Assembly (NCBI GenBank): GCA_011389865.1
Contig: JAABTL010000018.1
Location: forward strand, 1 to 55,547
Source of the DNA: Trueperaceae bacterium
Lineage (GTDB): Bacteria; Deinococcota; Deinococci; Deinococcales; Trueperaceae
Length of the DNA stretch: 55,547 nt
Reading direction: 5' to 3'
This document shows positions 48,462-50,095 of the stretch, piece by piece; position 1 is the first letter of the stretch, and the number at the start of each line of letters is the position of its first letter. The position numbers and the translations under genes were made by a program. The notes under the pieces are model-generated. The model searched no databases. It saw only the letters and a list, made by a program, of their open reading frames with translations, and had not been told where the DNA came from.

Positions 48462-49322
48462 TCAGAGCGCGCGCAGCGTAGCCAGGTCGCGCGCGTGCCC
48501 CAGGCCGTCGTCGCCCAGGGGGGTCTCCAGCACCATGGGCACGTCGCCCCAGCGCGGGTCGGCCAGCCAGCGGGCGAAGGCCCCGCGACCGAGCTCGCCC
48601 TCGCCGATCGAGGCGTGGCGGTCCTTGTGGCTGCCGAGCCCGAAGAGGCTGTCGTTGAGGTGGACGGCGGCCACCCGCTCGAGCGTGACCGTGCGCGCCA
48701 CCTCCTCGACGAAGGCGGCGTAGCCTTCGTCGCCGCGCAGGTCGTAGCCGGCGGCGAACGCGTGGCAGGTGTCGAGGCAGACGCCCACGCGCTCGGGCGC
48801 GTCCACCCGCGCCACGATCGCGGCGAGTTGCTCGAGCCGCGAGCCGAGCACCGTGCCCTGGCCGGCGGTGTTCTCCAGCAGCACCCGCGCGCTGGCATCC
48901 GGGAGCGCCGCGTGCACGGCGTCGAGCGCACGGGCGATGCCGTCGAGCCCGACGTCCTCGCCGGTGCCCAGGTGGGCGCCCGGGTGCAGCACCAGGCCAG
49001 GCACCCCCAGGAGGGTGCAGCGTTCGAGCTCGTCGCGCAACGCGAGGCGCGACTTCTCGTGCACGTCGGGCTTCGGGCTGCACAGGTTGATCAGGTAGCC
49101 GGCGTGGGCCACCAGCGGCAGCGGCGCCGGCGCGGACGGGCCGGGGGTCGCGGCGTGGGCCGTCCGGAAGGCGTCGATCTCCGCGTCGGGCAGCGGCTTC
49201 GCCCGCCAGGTGTTGGCGTTCTTGACGAACACCTGCAGGGCGTCGCAGCCGAGCTCGGCGGCGCGGGGGAAGGCGGTCGAGACGCCGCCGGCGGTGGACA
49301 CGTGGGCTCCGAGTCGGGGCAT
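48462..49322 (-). CDS. nfo: Endonuclease IV
   Basis: The 286-aa zinc AP endonuclease cuts at abasic sites in base-excision repair. Motifs: LGAHVSTAGGV, VAHAGYLINLCSP, VLHPGAHLG, VLLENTAGQG, GVCLDTCHAFAAGYDL, HLNDSLFGLGSHKDRHASIG, MVLETPLGDDG; these carry the His, Glu and Asp ligands of the trinuclear zinc site. Leaderless: TACCCT ends 5 nt before its ATG. It is divergent from nucS and shares the promoter palindrome. Confidence 0.95.
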   Translation of the reverse strand: MPRLGAHVSTAGGVSTAFPRAAELGCDALQVFVKNANTWRAKPLPDAEIDAFRTAHAATPGPSAPAPLPLVAHAGYLINLCSPKPDVHEKSRLALRDELERCTLLGVPGLVLHPGAHLGTGEDVGLDGIARALDAVHAALPDASARVLLENTAGQGTVLGSRLEQLAAIVARVDAPERVGVCLDTCHAFAAGYDLRGDEGYAAFVEEVARTVTLERVAAVHLNDSLFGLGSHKDRHASIGEGELGRGAFARWLADPRWGDVPMVLETPLGDDGLGHARDLATLRAL

Positions 49323-49327
49323 GCGAC

Positions 49328-49337
49328 AGGGTACCCT
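49328..49337. promoter_or_regulatory. Single palindromic -10 serving nfo and nucS
   Basis: AGGGTACCCT is a perfect palindrome, so TACCCT reads on both strands from overlapping bases. The nfo ATG and the nucS GTG each begin exactly 5 nt from its edges. Only 20 bp separate the two start codons. Confidence 0.65.
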
Positions 49338-49342
49338 CGGGC

Positions 49343-50095
49343 GTGCTGCTCGAGGCCCTCCACGACCCGCGGGACGACGAGCTCGTCGAGTTCCTGCGCG
49401 AGCACCTGCGCGCCGGCCAGGCGCTGGTCCAGGTGGTCGGCACCTGCGAGGTCAGCTACGTGGGCCGGGCGGCCTCCTTCGCCGACGCCGGCGACCTGCT
49501 GGTGATGGTCAAGCCCGACGGCTCCATCCAGGTGCACCGCGACCGGGGGGTGAAGCCGGTCAACTGGCAGCCGCGCACCGACGACCTGTGGATCGGTCTC
49601 GACGACGGCCAGGCGGTGCTGGTGGCCGAACGCCGCACGCCCGAGGAGACCCTACGGGTGGTGTTCCTCGAGGTGGCGCTGGCCCAGGCGCTGCACTTGC
49701 GCGAGGAGATCGCCTTCGTGCTGCGCGGCAGCGAGGCGCAGATGCAGGCGGCGCTGGCGCGCGAGCCCGAGCTGATCGAGCCGGGCCTGACGGTGCTCGA
49801 CCGCGAGCTCCCGACCGACGTCGGCGGCATCGACCTGTTCGCACGCGACCGTGACGGCCGCCTGGTCGTCGTCGAGCTCAAGCGCGCGAAGGGCACGCAG
49901 GAGGCGGTGCACCAGCTGGGGCGCTACGTCACCAGCGTGCGACGCTTCACCGGCGAGCCGGTGCGCGGGATCCTGGCGGCGCCCGCGATCACCCGGCCCG
50001 CGCTGGCGCAGCTCAACGCCGCCGGGCTCGAGTTCGTCGAGGTGACCGCGCTGCCCGAGGCCGACGAGGGGATCGACCAGCCCTCGCTCTTCTGA
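49343..50095 (+). CDS. nucS: NucS/EndoMS mismatch-specific endonuclease
   Basis: The 250-aa protein starts with a leaderless GTG. It matches EndoMS/NucS, which makes double-strand cuts at mismatches: Arg42 in YVGRAAS, Asn74-Trp75-Gln76 in VNWQPR, and the nuclease site Asp164 (GGIDLFA), Glu178 and Lys180 (VVVELKRAK). These sit within one or two positions of the archaeal residues I recall. The C-terminus ends DQPSLF, a good match to a sliding-clamp-binding peptide. Divergent from nfo. Confidence 0.93.
   Translation: MLLEALHDPRDDELVEFLREHLRAGQALVQVVGTCEVSYVGRAASFADAGDLLVMVKPDGSIQVHRDRGVKPVNWQPRTDDLWIGLDDGQAVLVAERRTPEETLRVVFLEVALAQALHLREEIAFVLRGSEAQMQAALAREPELIEPGLTVLDRELPTDVGGIDLFARDRDGRLVVVELKRAKGTQEAVHQLGRYVTSVRRFTGEPVRGILAAPAITRPALAQLNAAGLEFVEVTALPEADEGIDQPSLF

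Follow-up and report, generated by a model that had tools for sequence, protein, structure and literature searches.

The 20 bp that separate two divergent DNA-repair genes in the window (the whole 55,547-nt stretch of DNA that was analysed, from a genome of the Trueperaceae, a family within the Deinococcota) raise the question of whether a single -10 box can serve as promoter in both directions, and whether such an arrangement would set the two genes against each other.

The gene on the plus strand (49343..50095) starts with GTG and encodes a 250-aa EndoMS-type mismatch endonuclease, NucS, in which the N-terminal domain PF21003 (NucS_N) and the C-terminal domain PF01939 (NucS_C) were both found above cut-off. 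The model NF003270 also matched above cut-off, with residues 4-239 of NucS aligned to model positions 4-239, and this alignment, running from residue 4 at model position 4, supports the GTG start. On the minus strand (48462..49322), an open reading frame starting with ATG encodes a 286-aa deoxyribonuclease IV, Nfo, which scored 269.3 bits against TIGR00587 (cut-off 129.65) and whose ATG start aligned at all 27 of the loci where nfo is linked to nucS, the window's own locus counted. The names that an earlier interpretation of the letters alone (the sequence-only reading) had given to the two genes were borne out by these models.

The intergenic region and its two -10 boxes

The centre of the intergenic region (49323..49342) is occupied by the palindrome AGGGTACCCT (49328..49337), in which TACCCT can be read on each strand, at 49332-49337 on the plus strand and at 49333-49328 on the minus strand; it consists of two TANNNT boxes with a common central TA (T49332/A49333). 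The full order is CAT (49320-49322), GCGAC, the palindrome (49328-49337), CGGGC and GTG (49343-49345), and each box lies 5 nt from its start codon, the ATG of nfo (49322, minus strand) or the GTG of nucS (49343, plus strand), just as the sequence-only reading had described. The start codons are separated by 20 bp and the predicted first RNA bases lie 21 apart. No Shine-Dalgarno sequence was seen between box and start on either side, where the spacers consist only of GTCGC (nfo) or CGGGC (nucS), and a search of 49100-49600 for a sigma-70-type -35/-10 promoter found none.

The hexamer at 49332..49337 (+) is the predicted -10 box of nucS and the one at 49328..49333 (-) that of nfo, both on the strength of the genome-wide position signal described below. 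The pair are overlapping -10 elements on opposite strands, as in bidirectional promoters, and on both sides the distance from TANNNT to the start codon is in the range of about 5-8 nt that marks leaderless genes of the Deinococcota. Leaderless transcription is predicted to start at 49322 (-) for nfo, from position signal and conservation, and at 49343 (+) for nucS, from the same two lines of evidence and by analogy with nucS of M. smegmatis.

Our preferred reading, to which we give a probability of roughly 0.84, is that the site is a bidirectional -10-only promoter giving rise to two leaderless mRNAs. RNA polymerase with the housekeeping sigma factor would bind TACCCT in either orientation, and the bases just beyond the box would become +1, that is, the first bases of the start codon, either the GTG of nucS at 49343 or the ATG of nfo at 49322. 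Transcription would be weak and mostly independent in each direction, with no regulatory switch. That two leaderless mRNAs would leave one shared -10 box in opposite directions, as first proposed from the letters, is well supported by the genome-wide signal, the footprint in 28 genomes, published -10-only promoters and the leaderless nucS of M. smegmatis, from which we infer that both directions are transcribed, with 5' ends at the start codons.

The leaderless -10 signal in the genome

To place the two boxes in their genomic setting, a sample of 455,547 bases (20 segments of 20 kb each, together with the window) was examined, in which a codon-based gene caller predicted 309 genes. Of 308 genes, 40 had TANNNT 5-7 nt ahead of their first start codon, as against 2 for the control pattern ATNNNT and 7 for TNNNAT; gaps of 5, 6 and 7 nt were found in 11, 24 and 5 of the 308 genes, 6 nt being the commonest. 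Among the 47 divergent gene pairs of this sample, a box preceded the start of at least one gene in 21 and of both genes in 5, and only in nfo-nucS did the boxes overlap.

Such a signal is in keeping with what is described for the Deinococcus-Thermus group, where, in the available parts of PMC12340547 and PMC3160421 (Zheng et al. 2011), a TANNNT motif is placed a few bp before the start of about 30% of ORFs, with no recognisable -35 element. For D. radiodurans, the accessible text of PMC12340547 reports that the -10 motif alone suffices as promoter for leaderless expression, that promoters of this kind do not reach the strength of a -35/-10 promoter, and that expression turns aberrant when the box sits too near the start.

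Conservation of the boxes and origin of the overlap

We then searched 101 genomes for NucS, and matches were obtained in 37 of them (the window's own counted), 34 strong and 3 weak. The strong matches comprised 29 in the family, for which 39 genomes were sampled, and 5 elsewhere in the order. In 28 of these 29 family genomes nfo adjoins nucS in divergent orientation, the exception being G007, in which nfo lies about 9 kb from nucS. Across the 28 gene-pair genomes, TANNNT was found 5-7 nt before the ATG of nfo in all 28 and 5-8 nt before the start of nucS in 25, counts that lean toward the result in that, for L007, L010 and L012, a neighbouring in-frame GTG with a box was taken as the start. 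The three remaining nucS genes, all from a single genus, look leadered, because the box is 16-18 nt away and GGAGG precedes the start in two of the three; a distant box together with GGAGG is what would be expected of a promoter box and not of a translation signal. Outside the family, TANNNT was located 5-6 nt upstream of a possible start in four of the five order-level nucS genes, and among the four family genomes that have nfo and no full NucS, it was found 7 nt before the nfo start in two (G006, G020) and was absent within the tested range in the other two (G017, G025).

At two loci of genus g7 (L030, L031), 16 nt separate the nucS box from the start and GGAGG stands among them, which looks like a shift from a leaderless to a leadered mRNA with the box retained.

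The distance between the two genes is far less constant than the boxes, ranging from 20 bp (three species) to 208 bp, with a median of 56 bp over the 28 genomes. A single shared box occurs only in the window species and its two sister species, where the gap between the boxes is -2; in the other 25 genomes the boxes are 8 to 184 bp apart. Most relatives have a 7-nt gap at nfo, and the 5 nt found on both sides in the window are at the short end. In the three sister species (G000, G001, G002) all 20 intergenic bases are identical, while their fourfold sites in nfo and nucS differ by 12-19%; for each pair and gene, 20 unchanged bases would arise by chance with a probability of 0.01 to 0.07, and since the three species are closely related, this identity is modest evidence.

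In two other members of the genus the boxes are separate, 41 and 96 bp apart, and the shared box is therefore derived; on these comparisons it appears to be an overlap of two formerly separate boxes. The ancestor would have had two -10 boxes facing apart, as in the 25 of 28 genomes mentioned above, and in the ancestry of the window species and its two sisters the spacer would have shrunk until one TA was common to both boxes; a deletion from the TA of one box to the TA of the other would leave the observed sequence. The resulting 20 bp would be near the shortest intergenic region that leaves both hexamers intact. The site thus offers a clear natural case in which such a short region is probably the complete promoter for two genes and the separate-box state is still visible in relatives, and it illustrates how leaderless genes may let divergent promoters collapse onto each other.

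The first 74 nt of nfo (49249..49322, minus strand), which would lie upstream of the nucS box, on the -35 side of that promoter, are identical in the three sister species. The first 20 fourfold sites of nfo are invariant (P=0.005, for a run chosen post hoc), and a fixed window of the first 75 nt gave P=0.037. No synonymous constraint was found on the nucS side (P=0.75), and six other species groups showed no consistent effect; we regard the extra constraint at the 5' end of nfo as a weak hint.

Alternative explanations

From base composition (an estimate based on G+C), a 10-mer like this palindrome is expected about twice per genome, and it was found once in the 3.05-Mb genome, as was the reversed control pattern. 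The letters are therefore not unusual in themselves, and what lies beyond chance is the position of the palindrome and its conservation. Chance as a full explanation was ruled out by the conservation of the boxes across the 28 gene-pair genomes: the place of the palindrome relative to two start codons, and the fact that each box is kept in 25-28 of 28 genomes, leave this reading with next to no credence. The same conservation bears on the idea that the palindrome is an operator bound by a dimeric protein that regulates both genes, with an incidental likeness to -10 boxes. The perfect symmetry of the 10 bp and their place midway between the divergent genes would suit such a role, but in relatives without the palindrome its halves persist as TANNNT motifs at a fixed distance from their own starts, with 8-184 bp between them, the palindrome is single in the genome, and a second shared-box locus, described below, has other letters around the TA. 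The operator was rejected because each half is conserved and the whole palindrome is not, and we consider it very improbable. It is also rather improbable that the site drives a single gene, the second box being a by-product of symmetry and the gene behind it using another promoter. According to the available text of PMC10268837, -10 elements of E. coli often fire in both directions through mere near-symmetry, which lends this idea some weight; against it, each box is separately kept in relatives in which the two do not overlap, and no sigma-70-type promoter was found within 49100-49600.

The remaining alternative concerns the function of the overlap, namely that the shared box was selected as a switch by which transcription of one repair gene excludes that of the other. 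The geometry of a shared -10 box does mean, as the sequence-only reading had stated, that polymerase could occupy only one orientation at any instant, and this steric exclusion is physically unavoidable. The 20-bp region is moreover identical in three species, and in E. coli, as far as the accessible parts of PMC12825309 describe, one direction is repressed when the other is strongly activated. The same portions of that paper report that competition arises only under such strong activation, basal competition being too weak to matter at all five of the E. coli promoters that were tested; and -10-only promoters of D. radiodurans, as noted above, are weaker than -35/-10 promoters. Little competition between polymerases is expected at the nfo/nucS site, because -10-only promoters are weak, as at the basal E. 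coli promoters. No regulator site was seen at the locus, and an activator is neither known nor seen. We know of no reason why repair of abasic (AP) sites and mismatch cleavage should be anti-correlated. Exclusion is not a conserved trait, since 25 of the 28 genomes with the same gene pair keep their boxes apart and thus lack the exclusive geometry, and it was dropped as the leading reading once these separate boxes had been seen. The built-in exclusion between abasic-site repair and mismatch cleavage that had been proposed from the palindrome was not supported by these comparisons, in view of the separate boxes and of E. coli analogues that barely compete, and selection for a switch seems unlikely. 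Under the preferred reading of a bidirectional -10-only promoter, the nfo/nucS site would still allow a clean test of coupling between two genes through a shared -10 box.

Comparison with known promoters

Bidirectional promoters were reportedly defined as a class in a 2021 Nat Microbiol paper by Warman, Grainger and co-workers. Like the promoters described by Warman and Grainger in the available parts of PMC12825309 and PMC10268837, the nfo/nucS site has opposite-strand -10 elements with bases in common. In the accessible text of PMC10268837, the starts of such promoters lie 7-25 bp apart, 18 bp being the commonest distance, 10 and 23 bp also common and small variations allowed; the distance here is 21, as predicted from the start codons. 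The site appears to fit this published description, and its special feature is that, unlike in the bidirectional promoters described, both products are predicted to be leaderless mRNAs. With both RNAs predicted to be leaderless, the 20 bp would be the whole non-coding region, and the upstream side of each promoter would lie inside the other gene.

The TANNNT motif a few bp before the start likewise resembles the -10-motif leaderless promoters of the Deinococcus-Thermus group (PMC12340547, PMC3160421), although those papers, in their available parts, treat one-way promoters; the words divergent and bidirectional and the stem palindrom- do not occur in PMC12340547. The nearest parallel for the gene itself is nucS of M. 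smegmatis, which is transcribed from its own GTG (5'-RACE) with a TANNNT box upstream, according to the accessible portion of PMC12649562; unlike the NucS of the window, that protein is actinobacterial, and the same portion mentions no box shared with nfo. A literature search for leaderless genes in combination with bidirectional or overlapping divergent promoters, made by title and abstract and with most subscription papers outside its reach, returned no such case.

Distribution of NucS, MutS1 and MutL in the Trueperaceae

To learn how NucS is distributed relative to the canonical MutS1/MutL proteins, the 39 family genomes, many of the genomes compared being incomplete, were searched for all three. 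MutS1 was found above cut-off in 8 of them (a ninth has a MutS1 fragment at the edge of a contig) and MutL in 9. The genomes with MutS1 and/or MutL number 10 and are exactly the 10 that lack a strong NucS match, and neither protein was above cut-off in any of the 29 genomes with NucS. MutS1 was present in all five NucS genomes outside the family, in the same order. A survey of 2017, as far as its available text goes, lists seven Deinococcus-Thermus species with both systems (PMC5290159), and a literature search for Trueperaceae together with nucS found no paper.

This distribution suggests that NucS probably replaced MutSL in the Trueperaceae, outside the Actinobacteria and Archaea, and that mismatch repair in these bacteria probably depends mainly on NucS, in which case its expression would matter for their mutation rate. 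On a tree of MutS2 with 25 rows (25 genomes, picked from the 39 plus 3 outgroup genomes, with all NucS-lacking ones kept), the MutSL genomes fell into one nested group, which also holds the genome with unlinked nfo, G007.

In that genome (L088, L025), which groups with the MutSL genome G006 on the tree, NucS is present and no near TANNNT box was found; its nucS is possibly a separate gain.

Other loci with a shared box

A search of five genomes of the genus for two boxes with a common TA, at four spacings (6/6, 5/6, 5/5 and 6/7) and with reversed controls, gave 23 matches against 6 in the control. Because the control ignores the excess of one-sided leaderless genes, this comparison overstates the two-gene cases. 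When 21 of the 23 matches were inspected (G001:C48 and G002:C178 were left out), 9 proved to be clean two-gene cases, namely nfo/nucS in three species and six copies of one other pair over five species; most of the other matches had a plausible gene on one side only. Across the 39 family genomes, the 6/6 geometry gave 96 matches against 65 in the control, many of them in genomes in which the matched letters are AT-rich, and none of the 13 further family matches that were fetched was a clean two-gene case. The 18-bp class of shared box (TANNNTA) showed no excess among leaderless pairs in these 39 genomes (61 against 61 in the control).

The second shared-TA pair consists of a MOFRL/DUF4147 gene, glycerate-kinase-like by the enzyme name of the MOFRL family, facing a gene for a conserved protein of 98-99 aa without a Pfam match. 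It was found in all five members of the genus, at L096 1970-1997 (G000:C4:68469-68496) and at L097, L098, L110, L111 and L113, with two copies in G004. Shared-TA boxes might conceivably be where the shrinkage of intergenic regions repeatedly ends in a leaderless lineage, with the TA as a common point of failure and coupling, although we hold this generalisation to be doubtful. Were it true, a single substitution in the TA would silence both NucS mismatch repair and Nfo AP-site repair, a one-step double mutator, and the choice made by polymerase at the box would link the noise of nfo and nucS.

A near-identical shared-box stretch was also observed in three members of the genus, at L100 1995-2021 (G000:C11:147194-147220), L101 and L102. 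It is flanked by very short ORFs (30/42 and 25/46 aa) or, at L101, by a long open frame of doubtful coding, and may possibly represent a conserved small-ORF or RNA element.
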